Source: a virus
DNA length: 24,557 bases
Strand: one strand, 5' to 3'
IMG/VR virus record: IMGVR_UViG_3300021964_000510
Coordinates: 1 to 24,557 of that record
The notes beneath the pieces are model-generated. The model saw nothing but the letters and a program-made list of their open reading frames with translations, did not search any database and was not told where the DNA came from. Positions 14,077 through 20,146 of this stretch are shown here, piece by piece (the first letter of the stretch is position 1; every line of letters starts with the position of its first letter). Made by a program: the position numbers and the translations under genes.

Positions 14077-14670
14077 TTAGTCGCTTTCTTTAATTTCTAC
14101 CAATTCCTTTGCACTCATTAAGGAATTATTAAACCAAGTCTCTACATTTTTACTAAAGTTCATATCAAAGGTTGCAGGTGCGTTCTTAAACTCTAATCCT
14201 ATTTGTCCAGTAACACTCTTGTCTACATTAAAAGTATCATAATCCAGATACAAAGTTTCAAAGTTAATATAGTCTTTCCAGTATTCTGCGACATCAAACG
14301 TTCTTTCTAAATCAATCTTACCTTCTCTATCTACAACTTGATAGAATACTAAACGACCATCACTCTTTGCTTCCATAAGGTTATTACCTTTGTCAACGTC
14401 TTTTAGGTCATAGATACCTTCAGATACAATCAATCGGATATCATTAAAGTTTTCGGTATTACCATTAATGATTCGCATTGCTTCTGCTTGAAGATATAGA
14501 TTACGAGCAATCTGTTTTCTTTTATCATTACTGGTTACGTGATTGAATGATGTTCTATCACCATATGCACCCAGAAACTTTGCAATAGTTACGCCTGGGG
14601 CAAGTTTGGTTGCAGAGTTAATCTCACTCTGGAATTCTGGATTATATACTGGGTCAACTAATATTATCAC
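14077..14670 (-). CDS. Unassigned protein between spike and gp25 (GTG start)
   Basis: A 197-residue protein I do not recognise. It starts with GTG at 14670, overlapping the TGA stop of the spike gene by four bases (GTGA), which fixes the start; the next Met is about 70 residues in. The sequence is mixed alpha/beta and acidic, with a helical QIARNLYLQAEAMRIINGN region, then IRLIVSEGIYDL, a central GRLVFYQVVDREGKIDLERT, and aromatic-rich AEYWKDYINFETLYLDYD. There are no cysteines, no signal peptide and no enzyme motif. T4 puts the PAAR-like tip gp5.4 near this position, but this protein is too long and lacks a PAAR pattern. Its coupling to the spike gene suggests a spike partner, chaperone or hub accessory protein. 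That role is inference from position only. Confidence 0.8.
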   Translation of the reverse strand: MIILVDPVYNPEFQSEINSATKLAPGVTIAKFLGAYGDRTSFNHVTSNDKRKQIARNLYLQAEAMRIINGNTENFNDIRLIVSEGIYDLKDVDKGNNLMEAKSDGRLVFYQVVDREGKIDLERTFDVAEYWKDYINFETLYLDYDTFNVDKSVTGQIGLEFKNAPATFDMNFSKNVETWFNNSLMSAKELVEIKESD

Positions 14671-16115
14671 GGTGTAAACCTCTTACCTCTATTCTCAATC
14701 GCATTACCAATCGGTTCAAATCCAAATCTAGATGACGGAGATTTCTTTGCAGTCCTACCGATTGCAGGAGGTGTTTTTGTTTTATAATCTGGATTTAGTC
14801 TTTCTTCAGAAACAAGAATACTACCAACTGCATCACGAGAACTTGAATTACGGAATGCAGAACGAATCTCTTGGGTTGTTGGAATCTTATCAAATACGTC
14901 TTTATAATCATCGGTCAATATGATTCTACTCTTTAGAGTATCCCCTGCATCAACCACAACATTCTTAATTGCATATGAACCAGCTGTTGTATGCGAAACT
15001 ACAATGAGTGGTGTGATTGGGTCTTCACCAGTAATTGTTGCTTGTTCTTTGGTCGCTGCCGTATGTGTATCACCTACTGTACTTCCAGAAGTAAGTGCTT
15101 CTCCATATGACTGAGAATGTGTGAGGTCAGATACTTCGGCAAACCCTGCTACGTTTGCATTATAGGAACGAAGTGCTTCGTCCGCAATACCTTTAAATGT
15201 TCCGTGGAAGATTGCACCAGAAGATTCTGCGACTGCACCTAATCCACCTTGGAATACATTACCAGTAAAGTCAACCTTCTTACCACCGATTGCACCTTTC
15301 TGTCCTAATACTGATACATACTTTGCACCAGAGATATTGGTATTCTTTGAAGATACTGCAAAGGATTCCTTTCCAGACATAAAGATATTACCTTCAGACG
15401 CAAGTTCAACATTACCTTCAATATAATTAGTTTGATTCTTTTTAACAAATAGGTTATAATCTTTTAGACCAATCTCACTATAAGTTCCGACAGTCTTAGT
15501 TGTTCTACTTCCCTTGGTTGTATATAATGAACTACCTGTAACAGTAGTCTTATGATTGTGTTCAATCGCTTCTACTTTATTACCTGCAACGTTAAGATTC
15601 ATATTACCACCAACGTCAACATTGTAATCACCTGTTACTTTAAGATTAAGATTACCATTATAAACTAGATTACCGTGACCTTCAACAATAACTGTTTGGT
15701 CTCCTCCAGTTACTTCTACTTTATTATTGACCGCAGAAATAACAACAGAACCGTCTGCTCGCATTTCCACACCTGCACCTTTTCGGTGTTTGATAAGAAC
15801 ACGTTCACCGCCTGGCGTATCGTCATATTCTACAACGTGACCAGATATAGTTTCTTGTACTTGATTGAATGGATATTCAGAAGGTCTTTGTTGTTCAATA
15901 TTAAGAGATACACCAAAGTCACCACCCCCAACATAGAGGTCATTAGTCTTTAGTCCACGAGCAGATTTATTGATTGAAGAACCAAAGTTATATTCTCTCT
16001 TTGGGTATTCTCCTGTAGGGTCTTGCATTCCATCATAAGTTACGCCCAGAGTTTCTTCATTACCCTCACCGAGTTTGGCAACTCTTAAATCAAAATTGTC
16101 TTTTTTAGTTGTCAA
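14667..16115 (-). CDS. Central spike protein, gp5 C-terminal beta-helix equivalent (TTG start)
   Basis: The 482-residue protein resembles the C-terminal spike of T4 gp5. Residues 31-38 (QDPTGEYP) match the linker SDPTGQYP that follows the OB domain in T4 gp5. Residues 91-130 hold GHVVEYDDTPGGERVLIKHR and VEMRADGSVVIS, the entry typical of VgrG/gp5 spikes. Residues about 130-290 are short beta-helix strands with Gly-Asn/Gly-Asp turns (GNLNLKV, GDYNVDV, GNMNLNV). The last ~190 residues are less regular and end basic. The start is TTG at 16115: AGCGGAG lies 7 bases upstream, while the first ATG (codon 30) has no ribosome site and would cut into the DPTG region. The gene overlaps the amidase gene by 11 bases. 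The trimeric needle probably sits below the gp27-like hub and pierces the outer membrane. Confidence 0.88.
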   Translation of the reverse strand: MTTKKDNFDLRVAKLGEGNEETLGVTYDGMQDPTGEYPKREYNFGSSINKSARGLKTNDLYVGGGDFGVSLNIEQQRPSEYPFNQVQETISGHVVEYDDTPGGERVLIKHRKGAGVEMRADGSVVISAVNNKVEVTGGDQTVIVEGHGNLVYNGNLNLKVTGDYNVDVGGNMNLNVAGNKVEAIEHNHKTTVTGSSLYTTKGSRTTKTVGTYSEIGLKDYNLFVKKNQTNYIEGNVELASEGNIFMSGKESFAVSSKNTNISGAKYVSVLGQKGAIGGKKVDFTGNVFQGGLGAVAESSGAIFHGTFKGIADEALRSYNANVAGFAEVSDLTHSQSYGEALTSGSTVGDTHTAATKEQATITGEDPITPLIVVSHTTAGSYAIKNVVVDAGDTLKSRIILTDDYKDVFDKIPTTQEIRSAFRNSSSRDAVGSILVSEERLNPDYKTKTPPAIGRTAKKSPSSRFGFEPIGNAIENRGKRFTP

Positions 16116-17919
16116 GGTTTATCTCCGCTGGACTCAAAGGACTTGTGTTTGCAGGGTCAGTCGTAATATTACTTTTTCTGAATACTGATTCCACATAGTC
16201 TACTACATCAAAATATGGGTCAAGTTCAACTTCGTCAATATCGTTATGACCAAACACTTGACCGCCTGGGTATTTACGATAGAACGACCTGAGAAACTTT
16301 TCTAGGGTTGTAAACTGTTCACGTGTAAATGATTGTGCGGAACGATAATCTGTAGGATTATCATCACCAGACGCAACATTTATTCCACCGACCATTACAA
16401 GACCAATAGAATATACATCGTGACCATTAACCACAGCGTGTTCTCCATTACGGTTAACAGGTCTACCACGTTGAAGTCTACCATCACGTCTAATAACATA
16501 ATGATATCCAATACCATCGTGTCCTAATTCATTATGAATGTTATTTATCTCTATCGCACCAATGTTTTTATTAGTATATGTTTCTGTTGCGTGAACAATA
16601 ACTTCGGTAATATCTCTTTTAATACTTGCAAATTCAGCGTCAAGTTCTTCTACAGACGCAACATAAGTAAACACATCGTCTTCACTATTACGTCCTTTCC
16701 ATCTCTGGTTATTCGCATCAACAGGAATACCTTCGTCAAATAACTCTGCGTCTATCACAACACTTCCACCAATAGTAGTATCAAGTTGACTAAGACCATT
16801 ATCAATAATTATAATCTCATTAGTACACGTTTCTATTTCTGTTTTAGAGATACCTAATTTGGTTGCTTCGTTTACACAAGCGTCATTTAATTTTGTTGGA
16901 GTTGTTGGTTTCTTTTCTTTTTGCACTTTTTCGACAACAGCTTTCATTCTATCCGATACGTTTTCTGATTTAGTTACCAGAGTCTTTACTGCTTTTGTTT
17001 TTTCAACAGGGTCGTCTGTAGCAAATTGAGCAAGGATTGCTTGTCTTTCTCGTTCGGTTGCAGAAACACCGCCAGGCACAAGAGTCTGAATAAATGCACT
17101 TGCACTACCTGTTAACTTTTCTGCAATGTTTTGTAATACTCCACCAAGTCCTGTTTCTGTTCTGGTATTAAAGTCTGATACAAAATTGTTTACGTTTGTT
17201 TCTAATTTGTTGACAGCAGAGGTGACATCATTGAATACTGTTTTTGCTACGTCACCAACACTACCAAACTTAGATAATGAATTCTTTGGGTCATCTAGTT
17301 TTGCGGTCAGTCCACCAATTCCTGTTGCATCGGACACTGCGTCTTTTACGTCTTCTAGTTTTCCACTAAGACTTGATACAGGAGTAATGTCTTTTACAAT
17401 ATCATCAATCTTAGGAATTTGAAGATTCGGTAAAGCGGCAGTAATTGACGATAGTTCTCCTGCATCAGCAATAGTTGCCGTAAAGGTAGATATGTCAGAC
17501 ATAGCAGCACCAGAAATAGATTCTACTTTTTCTACTGCGGATTGAATATCTTCTGGTGTCCCTCCACCAACTGCTGCCATTGTTGCACTAGGTTTATCTC
17601 CACCTGCTTGAGTCATTGCAGGTAATCCTGCAAGAGAAGCTAATGCAGACGAAGGATTTGCTTTTCCACCTACGCCAGGCAATTTATCTGTAAGTTGACC
17701 AAGACCGTCTTTTAAAACTTCGTTAGGTGAAATACCTGATTCACCCAAACTCTTAACACCACCCAAGACTTCACCATCAATCGCACCAATCTTACTAGTA
17801 GTCTTTACAAAGGTTTCTTCTACAGATTTTACTTCTGATTCAATCAGTGTAGTTTGAGATTTTAACTTTCTTGATTCTGCTTTCAGTACAGTATTTAAAT
17901 CTTCTTTCTTCAGTGCCAT
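16105..17919 (-). CDS. Baseplate hub protein with C-terminal zinc N-acetylmuramoyl-L-alanine amidase
   Basis: The 604-residue protein has two parts. Residues 1 to about 430 are Ala/Ser/Gly/Lys-rich and mostly helical with no recognised domain. Residues about 435-580 form an Amidase_2 domain related to T7 lysozyme and AmpD: EVIVHATETY, DGIGYHYVIRRDGRLQRGRP and YSIGLVMVGGI align well with T7 lysozyme. Predicted zinc ligands are H443, H558 and D567 (Asp third ligand, as in AmpD, where T7 has Cys), with Tyr472 conserved. Such enzymes cut the bond between muramic acid and L-Ala in peptidoglycan. The Lys usually two residues before the third ligand is E565 here. The gene lies between the OB-fold gp5 protein (TAATG overlap) and the spike (11-base overlap), so it likely supplies the tail lysin activity during DNA entry. 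A free endolysin role seems less likely given the long N-terminal region and the position. Confidence 0.9.
   Translation of the reverse strand: MALKKEDLNTVLKAESRKLKSQTTLIESEVKSVEETFVKTTSKIGAIDGEVLGGVKSLGESGISPNEVLKDGLGQLTDKLPGVGGKANPSSALASLAGLPAMTQAGGDKPSATMAAVGGGTPEDIQSAVEKVESISGAAMSDISTFTATIADAGELSSITAALPNLQIPKIDDIVKDITPVSSLSGKLEDVKDAVSDATGIGGLTAKLDDPKNSLSKFGSVGDVAKTVFNDVTSAVNKLETNVNNFVSDFNTRTETGLGGVLQNIAEKLTGSASAFIQTLVPGGVSATERERQAILAQFATDDPVEKTKAVKTLVTKSENVSDRMKAVVEKVQKEKKPTTPTKLNDACVNEATKLGISKTEIETCTNEIIIIDNGLSQLDTTIGGSVVIDAELFDEGIPVDANNQRWKGRNSEDDVFTYVASVEELDAEFASIKRDITEVIVHATETYTNKNIGAIEINNIHNELGHDGIGYHYVIRRDGRLQRGRPVNRNGEHAVVNGHDVYSIGLVMVGGINVASGDDNPTDYRSAQSFTREQFTTLEKFLRSFYRKYPGGQVFGHNDIDEVELDPYFDVVDYVESVFRKSNITTDPANTSPLSPAEINLDN
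16123..16129 (-). promoter_or_regulatory. Ribosome binding site fixing the TTG start of the spike gene
   Basis: The minus strand reads AGCGGAG, with GGAG 7 bases before the TTG at 16115. It is one of the strongest Shine-Dalgarno matches in the window and decides for TTG over the unsupported downstream ATG at 16028. Confidence 0.7.
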
Positions 17920-18785
17920 TATACTATCCTGTCCGTCATTCTTCTAGACTGAAGTTCTACTTGTTTAATGAACTTACTATCTGATTTATCAAGATAATAT
18001 TTACAAATAATTTCACATATACCGTTTTTACCTTCTAATTTATCTGATTGTAACAATCTAATATTAGCACCAGTCTTTGTTCCGTTTAATTCATAAGCAA
18101 TAAATGCTAACTGAGTCATATATTGTTGATAGTTATTAGAGAAGTTTTGTAGGTCAGTATATCTTTCTCTAGAAAAATCTGCAAGACCTCTTGATTGTCT
18201 ATTGACTCCAGTTCTTTGACCAGAGGATAATGTAAATGCAGAAGAAAGACCAATAGATTGTTTGACTGTATATCCAAGATTTAAAAAGAATTTGACCGCA
18301 GTCTTTTCTCTTGATAACTTGACCAGATTATTAATATTCCCAGAGTTTTCATTTTGAATATCTGCGTCTTTAGGTTTTACTGCATTTATTACTTTCTCCC
18401 ACAAGTTTTCTGGTTTGTTATCTTCTCCTATATCTTCTTCTGTTTGACCTAACTGCACACTAGTAGGTAATTCTACGTGAGGAAGTGTACCAAAAACAAC
18501 AGGAGTTTGAGAGTTCATACCGTCCATAAACATACCGAAGACCAATGCGTTAGGTTGAATCTGAGGCATTCTACCAATACCAGATACTCCACCTTCGGTT
18601 GTAGGAAGCATACATTGTGCCCAAGGTAAGTCTGCTTGAGGAATCAATCTGGTAGAATCTGTATGTAATCCGTGAACTCTAATCTTAACTCTACCTTCAT
18701 ATCCATAGGGTGGAGACGCATCCACAACAGTTGCAATAAACCATCGTGTGTTATCACCATAATATTCTGATAGAATAGGTTTCAT
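17919..18785 (-). CDS. gp5: Baseplate hub gp5 N-terminal OB-fold protein with lysozyme-like tail domain
   Basis: Residues 13-105 match the OB-fold domain of T4 gp5: RWFIATVVDASPPYGYEGRV, KIRVHGLH, LPWAQCMLPTTEGGVSGIGR and a strand ending VVFGTLP correspond to WFVGVVEDRMDPLKLGRVRV, RVVGLH, LPWMSVIQPITSAAMSGIGG and IVLGTYG. In T4 this domain binds gp27 and caps the hub trimer. Residues about 105-155 are an acidic linker. Residues about 158-265 (AVKFFLNLGYTVKQSIGL, RGLADFSRERYTDLQNF, YMTQLAFIAYELNG) resemble the phage tail lysozyme family (Phage_lysozyme2), but the expected Glu in the ESG motif is Ser187 (LSSG), so it is probably inactive. The protein is only 288 residues because amidase and spike are separate genes downstream. 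It is joined by TAATG overlaps on both sides. Confidence 0.9.
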   Translation of the reverse strand: MKPILSEYYGDNTRWFIATVVDASPPYGYEGRVKIRVHGLHTDSTRLIPQADLPWAQCMLPTTEGGVSGIGRMPQIQPNALVFGMFMDGMNSQTPVVFGTLPHVELPTSVQLGQTEEDIGEDNKPENLWEKVINAVKPKDADIQNENSGNINNLVKLSREKTAVKFFLNLGYTVKQSIGLSSAFTLSSGQRTGVNRQSRGLADFSRERYTDLQNFSNNYQQYMTQLAFIAYELNGTKTGANIRLLQSDKLEGKNGICEIICKYYLDKSDSKFIKQVELQSRRMTDRIV

Positions 18786-20146
18786 TACGGAAGTCTCTCT
18801 AGTTTACAAACATTCATTGAAACCGTATGTTGAGTTCCTGCAAATGTGTGACGAGTTTTGTGAATAATAAAATCACCAGATTTACCTTTATCTATTAGGT
18901 CATCTTCATTTCCAAATAAAGAAGTTTCTGTATTATCATTAACAACTTTAAGATTTACGATATCACCAACACTTGCTTTAGAAATAATAAAACCTGCACC
19001 TTCAACAACAACATTCATCATATTCTTATAGAGGTGATTCTTGATTGCACGACTCTCTACTTTCTTTTTAAATTTAGTCGCATCGTATTCATCGTGATAA
19101 CTTTTGTATCTACCATATGTCCCACTTGAGGTCACGGTATGATACATTTTTGGTTGATATAAATCAACAAACCTATCACCTATTCTAAAAGATGGGTCAA
19201 AGACATTTTGATTCTCACCAATAATTTGTTGCTCTCTTAAATTAGAAAGTTGGTTTCTTATCGTATGATGTTGTGAAAATATTTGACCTGTATTAAGATT
19301 TGTGTTAGAATAACCAGCAGAGACAGCACCCTCTTGAACAAGTTTCAATGTGTTTGCCATTTTAGATGTTCTTATATTTTTAATAGTGAAGGTTCTCTCT
19401 AACTCAGATTGTGTCTCTGAATTAGCAACGTTTGCTGGGTTATAGGTGTATGGTAATCGTGAGTTAAACGCTTGTTGTGATAACATAGAATCAAGATTAC
19501 CTAAACGAAGATTATCATCGTGCATTGATGCATATGCAAAGAACGGAGAACCTGTTACTGTTGTTGCACGACTAATTAACCAATTGATTGATTCTATTGG
19601 ATTTAGATTAGGAATAATTCCTTTCATATTAGTTTGTATTGGTTCTGATTTTTTACCATTACCCAGAAACAAATATGAAAGGTCTATATCTAGATTCATC
19701 TCTGTCGCAAGAAGTTTGACCAAGATATTATCAATAGTGCCACTAAATGATTTACTAATTTTCTTTAGACTAGATAAAAATGCGTGTTCGTCTAGCAATG
19801 TAAAAACATACATACTAGACTTTCCGTTATCATTAGACTTGACAGAACGTTCTACTCCTGTCATAATAAAGGTACGTTCAAATACTGTATCTAAATCATT
19901 TTCAACCGAAGATAGTTGAACTTTAAATCTTTCTGTACCTTGAAAGTTTATCTTATCAAAGAGTCCTTTGTCATCAAGAATAACAACCGTACCAGTTAAA
20001 TAAGGTTTATCTAGACTTTCAAAGATATTAAGTTCTGCAACAGAAGTTCTTACATCAAAGAAGTTCGCATTAAAACCACCAATACGGTCTGCGGTAATAG
20101 CTGCTTCAGTAATCTTATACTGTTGTGATTGAGTGGTTTTTGCCAT
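18785..20146 (-). CDS. Baseplate hub protein, gp27-like
   Basis: The 453-residue protein follows gp53 and precedes the OB-fold gp5 protein, both with TAATG overlaps. The N-terminal half (LNIFESLDKPYLTGTVVILD, then a strand-rich KVQLSSVENDLDTVFERTFI) suits a tube-type barrel domain. Residues about 180-215 contain NPIESINWLISRATTVTGSP followed by FFAYAS, a segment common in gp27/gpD-type hub proteins. The C-terminal part ends VGDIVNLKV and a final strand, as expected of a hub barrel. T4 gp27 (about 391 residues) forms the trimeric cup carrying gp5 and adapts sixfold tube to threefold spike. Assignment rests on architecture, the hub segment and the gp5 partner next door; direct identity to T4 gp27 is low. 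Confidence 0.8.
   Translation of the reverse strand: MAKTTQSQQYKITEAAITADRIGGFNANFFDVRTSVAELNIFESLDKPYLTGTVVILDDKGLFDKINFQGTERFKVQLSSVENDLDTVFERTFIMTGVERSVKSNDNGKSSMYVFTLLDEHAFLSSLKKISKSFSGTIDNILVKLLATEMNLDIDLSYLFLGNGKKSEPIQTNMKGIIPNLNPIESINWLISRATTVTGSPFFAYASMHDDNLRLGNLDSMLSQQAFNSRLPYTYNPANVANSETQSELERTFTIKNIRTSKMANTLKLVQEGAVSAGYSNTNLNTGQIFSQHHTIRNQLSNLREQQIIGENQNVFDPSFRIGDRFVDLYQPKMYHTVTSSGTYGRYKSYHDEYDATKFKKKVESRAIKNHLYKNMMNVVVEGAGFIISKASVGDIVNLKVVNDNTETSLFGNEDDLIDKGKSGDFIIHKTRHTFAGTQHTVSMNVCKLERLP

Follow-up and report, generated by a model that had tools for sequence, protein, structure and literature searches.

A T4-related baseplate hub with gp5 divided among separate genes, a predicted inactive lysozyme-fold domain and a neighbouring putative amidase

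A viral DNA segment of 24,557 nucleotides (24.6 kb, 36% GC; positions 1-24,557 of IMG/VR virus record IMGVR_UViG_3300021964_000510; hereafter the window, meaning the whole of this stretch) carries on its minus strand a T4-like baseplate operon. Within it, a run of adjoining genes probably specifies the hub and puncturing part of a T4-related myovirus, with gp5 divided among separate genes; its lysozyme would have decayed to a structural part, and the neighbouring amidase is the most likely enzyme of the virion. The proposed set comprises a gene for an OB fold and a lysozyme domain of the phi29 gp13 type (the OB gene), one for a large N-terminal region and a T7-type zinc amidase (the middle gene), one for a linker and beta-helix spike (the spike gene), and one for a putative spike-tip piece:

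17919..18785, minus strand: OB gene (288 amino acids, aa), OB fold plus lysozyme-fold domain, corresponding to T4 gp5* (OB + lysozyme); Gp5_OB match at E 4.2e-6
18462..18785, minus strand: OB fold, residues 1-108
17922..18350, minus strand: lysozyme-fold domain, predicted inactive, residues 146-288
18225..18227, minus strand: codon of Ser187, at the position of the catalytic Glu (gp13 Glu45)
16105..17919, minus strand: middle gene (604 aa)
16669..17919, minus strand: N-terminal region of the middle protein, residues about 1-417
16180..16626, minus strand: amidase domain, residues 432-580, with zinc ligands H443, H558 and D567
14667..16115, minus strand: spike gene (482 aa, TTG start)
16002..16022, minus strand: DPTGEYP linker motif, spike residues 32-38
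14077..14670, minus strand: 197-aa gene, putative split-off C-terminal part of the spike

The OB gene, which a first-pass annotation had taken for an OB fold alone, holds more than that. Its N-terminal part is a gp5-type OB fold, matching PF06714 above the family cut-off and with fold matches to P1 Gp5 (9vzk; Z 9.6, 78 aa, root-mean-square deviation (rmsd) 2.4) and to T4 gp5. In the AlphaFold2 model (mean predicted local distance difference test score (pLDDT) 76.5, and about 90 in the lysozyme half), the C-terminal half is a lysozyme fold of the phi29 gp13 type: residues 142-288 superpose on gp13 (3csq) with a Z of 15.8 and an rmsd of 2.3 over 140 residues, the next matches for this half alone being lytic transglycosylases at Z 7.6. 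Phage_lysozyme2 (PF18013) matches residues 162-270 of the window protein at E 0.022, below the family cut-off; of 35 aligned family members, among which one is identical to the window protein, 32 have a match at E <= 0.1 (best 2.8e-24), and one of the three misses, Atu_ph04, has a CHAP domain instead. Compared with the PDB, a profile of the 35 members finds T4 gp5 (5e-19 to 2e-18) and phi29 gp13 (6.8e-6).

The catalytic glutamate is missing from this fold. Glu45 is the suggested catalytic residue of gp13, according to passages of PMC10394673. When an intact relative is aligned to 3csr, the Glu of its GNxxxES motif falls on Glu45 (as counted from the printed alignment), and mapping of that column onto the window protein gives Ser187. 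Judged by this residue, the muramidase of the window OB gene is inactivated, not absent; because the OB gene retains the muramidase fold, the first-pass proposal of an amidase in place of the muramidase is unsupported as an outright replacement. None of the three hub proteins matches GH24 (PF00959) at E <= 0.1, and this family was matched in 0/4 long related contigs in a search whose positive control matched 3/14.

The AmpD/T7-type enzyme proposed for the middle gene is borne out for its C-terminal part. Amidase_2 matches residues 435-568 (1.7e-11), phrog_822 matches the protein at 7.6e-33, and residues 432-579 superpose on T7 lysozyme (1lba) with a Z of 18.9 and an rmsd of 2.2 over 137 residues. 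H443, H558 and D567, as well as Tyr472, align with their T7 lysozyme counterparts, all three zinc ligands (H, H, C/D) being kept. To call the gene a cell-wall enzyme nonetheless passes over the N-terminal region, which makes up about two thirds of it; this region, delimited by AlphaFold2 pLDDT per block in a low-confidence model, is poorly modelled to about residue 270 and better as a helical part at about 280-377. We infer from synteny that the middle protein is in the virion. The OB/lysozyme-fold protein would most likely sit on the gp27-like ring, with the spike carrying the linker and the middle protein adding the amidase, which would most likely open the peptidoglycan on entry, cutting the sugar-peptide bond rather than the sugar chain.

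The two active sites were compared across relatives in 204 IMG/VR loci, a redundant set that includes a copy (L001/L026) 100% identical to the window's own genes. Both sites were readable in 158: in 85 the lysozyme site is lost and the amidase site intact, in 50 the reverse holds, 23 have both intact, and none has lost both. Dereplication leaves the same order of states (45/36/13/0 of 94 loci, 33/28/11/0 of 72, and 28/24/9/0 of 61). Nine further lysozyme-lost loci have an unreadable amidase, the sequence ending before or inside that domain. The first 95 readable loci had given 72 with the lysozyme lost and the amidase intact, 22 of the reverse, one with both intact and none with both lost; strict reciprocity of the two sites was therefore given up in favour of 'never both lost' when a wider scan added many both-intact lineages.

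In 33 loci of the 72-locus set, the Glu position holds S, A, V, K, I, Q, T or W, and all 33 have also lost the preceding GN; GN is present in 38 of the 39 Glu-bearing loci, the exception being L209. On the amidase side, all three zinc ligands are present in 33/33 lysozyme-dead lineages and are lost in 28 of the 39 with an intact lysozyme site. The position of Tyr46 is occupied in the lysozyme-dead lineages by Tyr (31) or Phe (2), and 72/72 loci retain the His that follows the Tyr. Two decayed amidases were run against the PHROG amidase profile and both still match it (L172, 2.6e-15; L088, 1.2e-5). The lineage of the window would thus be one in which the lysozyme site decayed and the domain was retained as structure; in related lineages the roles would be swapped, and some would keep both enzymes. 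Sites that are intact are presumably active, and a two-enzyme state probably came earlier.

The lysozyme-fold domain could instead still be active through a displaced catalytic residue, as its well-kept fold and low ratio of nonsynonymous to synonymous substitution (dN/dS) would allow. We regard this as very improbable, given the joint loss of Glu and GN in every one of the 33 lineages; within about ten positions, moreover, no constant acidic residue is seen by eye in the family alignment.

By the Nei-Gojobori method, dN/dS of the dead lysozyme is 0.05 in the one close pair (L001-L002) and 0.16-0.18 in two others, whose dS exceeds 1; that of the dead amidase is 0.07-0.17 in six close pairs, and several other pairs are saturated. 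The decayed domains are kept under purifying selection, and since they also remain recognisable, these sequence comparisons suggest a structural part for them.

That gp5 functions are spread over three coupled genes is supported by the open reading frames (ORFs), their overlaps and the profile matches, with the amendment that the gene at 14077-14670 is to be counted as a fourth member. Neighbouring ends of the three hub ORFs overlap by 1 nt (OB/middle) and 11 nt (middle/spike). In the relatives (redundant loci), fused junctions number 0/175 for OB-middle and 0/158 for middle-spike, and the arrangement is the same at every readable junction, which rules out a frameshift or assembly artefact as the source of the split. 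The ends overlap at 129/175 and 106/158 junctions, respectively. An OB-middle gap of at least 500 bases occurs in 5/175; the gaps in L080 and L087 come from an ORF broken in two (the middle gene of L080, the OB gene of L087), the opposite of fusion. A single gene for OB fold, lysozyme and spike is found neither in the window nor in the relatives. The middle gene is matched in 181/204 loci, and the remaining 23 end at a contig edge.

The first-pass annotation had gone further and read the lysin as a separate, replaceable subunit between cap and needle, which we take to mean one that is freely exchanged, with the muramidase replaced. Such exchange has a parallel in the variety of hub enzymes in T4-like phages (GH24, lysozyme2, CHAP, VanY-like and GH19-like), and the middle proteins of L060 (3708-6107) and L083 (8838-11075) add a C-terminal Peptidase_M15_3 domain after the amidase. 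Within this clade, however, 156/156 complete middle genes have one and the same amidase-type domain, in an intact or a decayed state (placed at a loose threshold, in the redundant set), so that a freely replaceable subunit is unsupported here; the lysozyme fold also persists in the OB gene, and we consider this reading extremely unlikely.

A further alternative is that the amidase is a lysis endolysin, located in the baseplate operon by chance and not part of the virion. The phrog_822 and next PHROG matches of the gene are indeed filed under lysis, and Amidase_2 matches number at most one per long contig in 9/9. Against this, the amidase gene is flanked by the OB and spike genes wherever both junctions could be read, commonly with the overlaps given above; the window amidase bears about 400 extra N-terminal residues; and many relatives have lost the amidase site, yet keep the whole gene under purifying selection. 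In eight of the nine long contigs the sole Amidase_2 match falls within the hub locus (one of the eight being below cut-off), with none in the ninth, and six of the nine have elsewhere a separate M15 peptidase frame of 159-186 aa, which is a better endolysin candidate. Together, the M15 frames and the hub location of the Amidase_2 match weaken this alternative, to which we give little credence. SLT had no matches in the nine long contigs, nor had GH108, for which the positive control likewise matched nothing, so that the GH108 result carries no information.

Several observations weigh against the hub we propose, with its decayed lysozyme and live amidase. One is the lysine of T7 lysozyme, which we take to be K128 (C130 and the other T7 lysozyme residues being numbered likewise): the window has E565 in this place, and Lys is present in 7/11 both-intact lineages and in 0/33 lysozyme-dead ones. 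Because this Lys is replaced by Glu, the middle protein might bind peptidoglycan without cutting it, in the manner of a peptidoglycan recognition protein, and the window hub would then have no active enzyme. The full retention of the zinc ligands in lysozyme-dead lineages, set against their loss in most lysozyme-intact ones, speaks against such a binding protein, as does the Tyr or Phe kept at the Tyr46 position. The K128-type Lys is not constant across the whole Amidase_2/T7 lysozyme family, and amidases of this fold that are active with a different residue in its place are known. We consider a non-cutting middle protein unlikely, and prefer an amidase that cuts.

The remaining points on the same side concern selection, sampling and the number of evolutionary events. 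In L001-L002, dN/dS is 0.23 for the live amidase, which exceeds the 0.05 of the dead lysozyme; in more distant pairs, whose dS is near or above 1, the dead lysozyme gives 0.16-0.18 and the amidase 0.03-0.12. The hubs of HTVC008M, Mosig and C48C1 consist of OB and spike with no enzyme domain by Pfam at E <= 0.05; a hub enzyme is therefore not universally needed. The sample is capped, the wider scan having taken in 80 of at least 587 relatives. On each of two trees built from gp27, gp53, gp25 and gp6 of 72 loci, the minimum is three changes per trait; those of the lysozyme fall to two without the doubtful L209 and to one without the long-branch L162 as well, and its loss may thus be a single event if both rows are dropped. 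When independence was simulated, 48% of runs had no double-dead tip, and an independent-pairs test contained too few pairs for significance to be attainable. On the other side, a Pagel-type comparison of dependent and independent models gives a likelihood-ratio statistic of 11.05 (4 degrees of freedom, P 0.026), and among simulated runs with 15 or more losses of each site only 6/164 lack a double-dead tip. With so few changes, that share of simulations and too few pairs, the complementarity of the two sites is suggestive, a lead and not proof, and 'at least one must live' is unproven.

A broader statement can be made only tentatively, and we would not favour it at even odds: that the window belongs to a widespread, largely uncultured T4-related clade with two hub enzymes for different bonds, in which either site may decay with its fold kept and at least one is always alive. 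If true, the clade would be a natural experiment in the hand-over of enzymes within a virion machine. In both directions the fold is seen to persist after its active site is gone; this points to a structural role of hub 'lysozyme' domains together with a choice of two wall bonds, and raises the question of whether a puncturing device requires its enzyme as a catalyst or as a piece of its shape. Genes of this kind that are labelled 'tail lysozyme' may encode an inactive domain.

The spike protein matches phrog_430 (gp5, 1.4e-33), by which it is a gp5-type beta-helix spike, predicted to be trimeric; Gp5_trimer_C matches at E 1.9e-4, below the curated cut-off. In T4 gp5, DPTGQYP at 116 directly follows the OB fold, and the transfer of this linker to the spike N-terminus, as noted in the first-pass annotation, is confirmed by DPTGEYP at residues 32-38. 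DPxGxYP lies within the first 90 residues of 61/90 distinct spikes; of the 29 without it, all 12 that were listed show variants, such as DPTGALP and NASGDLP. The linker follows the OB fold in a fused protein in T4, RB16, HTVC008M and Mosig, and is near the spike N-terminus in Melnitz. Two other spike genes have features of note: that of the lysozyme-intact relative L088 (10424-12811) has an extra C-terminal region, M15-like by eye (HPAG...D...IHYD), and the N-terminal half of the Atu_ph04 spike gene (L102, 6273-8834) includes a stretch similar by eye to a transglycosylase motif, Pfam giving only weak spike-type domains.

The 197-aa gene is counted into the hub set since many relatives (e.g. 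L088, L090, L098 and L145) have it joined to the C-terminus of the spike in one fused gene. The window protein has no Pfam or PHROG match and its family no PDB match, one of 19 members having a weak PHROG match of unknown function. It might be a decayed M15 peptidase: compared with the M15-like tips of Cr30 and Melnitz, to which it bears a weak resemblance, it gives a pairwise hhalign E of 3.6e-5 at a probability of 45, and its constant residues are unlike a zinc set.

Besides the hub genes, the operon includes a tail-tube cap, gp53, gp25, gp6 and others, and upstream of the OB gene a gp27-like gene:

18785..20146, minus strand: gp27-like hub gene; phrog_350 tail protein match at 9e-38

The gp27-like family profile matches an Ochrobactrum phage OC gene (75 bits) whose record cites PDB 1WTH_D, a chain that we take to be gp27. 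At megablast sensitivity no near-identical DNA was found for the window in phage records; by gp6, C48C1 comes closest among phage records (38% identity over 97%). The only relative found in the prokaryote genome collection is L223, a 142-kb contig at 45% identity in a Sphingobacteriales metagenome-assembled genome, which may be a co-binned phage genome and a weak hint of host. The protein encoded at 1457-2908 of the window contains, as judged by eye, numerous near-repeats of a TTTAxxLxxAINELD-like unit.

By titles and abstract starts, with subscription papers mostly outside that scope, we found no description of a hub like that of the window; the text available from PMC3037559 and PMC10811340 does not mention a gp5 split, and that from PMC9004378 matches only in its reference list. 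The closest comparison is T4 gp5, with the same order of OB fold, lysozyme and beta-helix spike and the same DPTGxYP linker. The first-pass description of T4 gp5 as one polypeptide is right for the gene; proteolysis between Ser351 and Ala352 then divides the product, both parts being present in the particle as separate halves (PMC7650644). The gene split thus resembles T4 proteolysis, though with several genes in place of one gene plus cleavage, the linker on the spike side, an inserted amidase gene, and a phi29-gp13-type rather than GH24 lysozyme whose site is lost.

Other systems share single features. In Atu_ph04, and in phiM9 and P10VF as cited in the accessible text on it (PMC6630229), the OB and spike parts are already published as separate genes; those of Atu_ph04 are far apart, its OB gene carries CHAP, and no amidase gene is annotated beside them. 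The Methylophilales phage Melnitz has an OB + enzyme gene followed by a linker + spike gene with DPxxxYP near its N-terminus, but the enzyme is VanY-like (22.4 bits, cut-off 25) and no amidase gene lies in between. The lysozyme domain of phi29 gp13 has the fold of the OB gene C-terminal half, with Glu45 where the window has Ser187 and with a second domain; T7 lysozyme and AmpD share fold, zinc ligands and Tyr with the window amidase, which differs from T7 lysozyme in C130 (Asp), K128 (Glu), its fusion to a large N-terminal region and its place in a baseplate operon. Caulobacter phage Cr30 and Ochrobactrum phage OC combine OB, Phage_lysozyme2 and spike, but as single gp5 genes in which no amidase domain was found.

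Among other T4-like records the varied hub enzymes lie in the OB gene: GH24 in T4 and RB16, lysozyme2 in Cr30 and OC (OC also with M15), CHAP in Atu_ph04, OLIVR5 and ORM_20, and a GH19-like match in BUCT-ZZ01. No enzyme domain was found at E <= 0.05 in the gp5 proteins of cyanophages S-SM2 and S-SSM4. Enzyme content also varies between Melnitz (L131; OB + VanY-like, then spike), Mosig (L105; a 361-aa OB + spike protein) and C48C1 (L129; a 196-aa OB protein with a short spike-like tail). The split itself is already known from Atu_ph04 and is seen in Melnitz as well, and an unusual enzyme is not new as such; what is new is the presence of two enzymes in neighbouring hub genes, decaying oppositely in different lineages.

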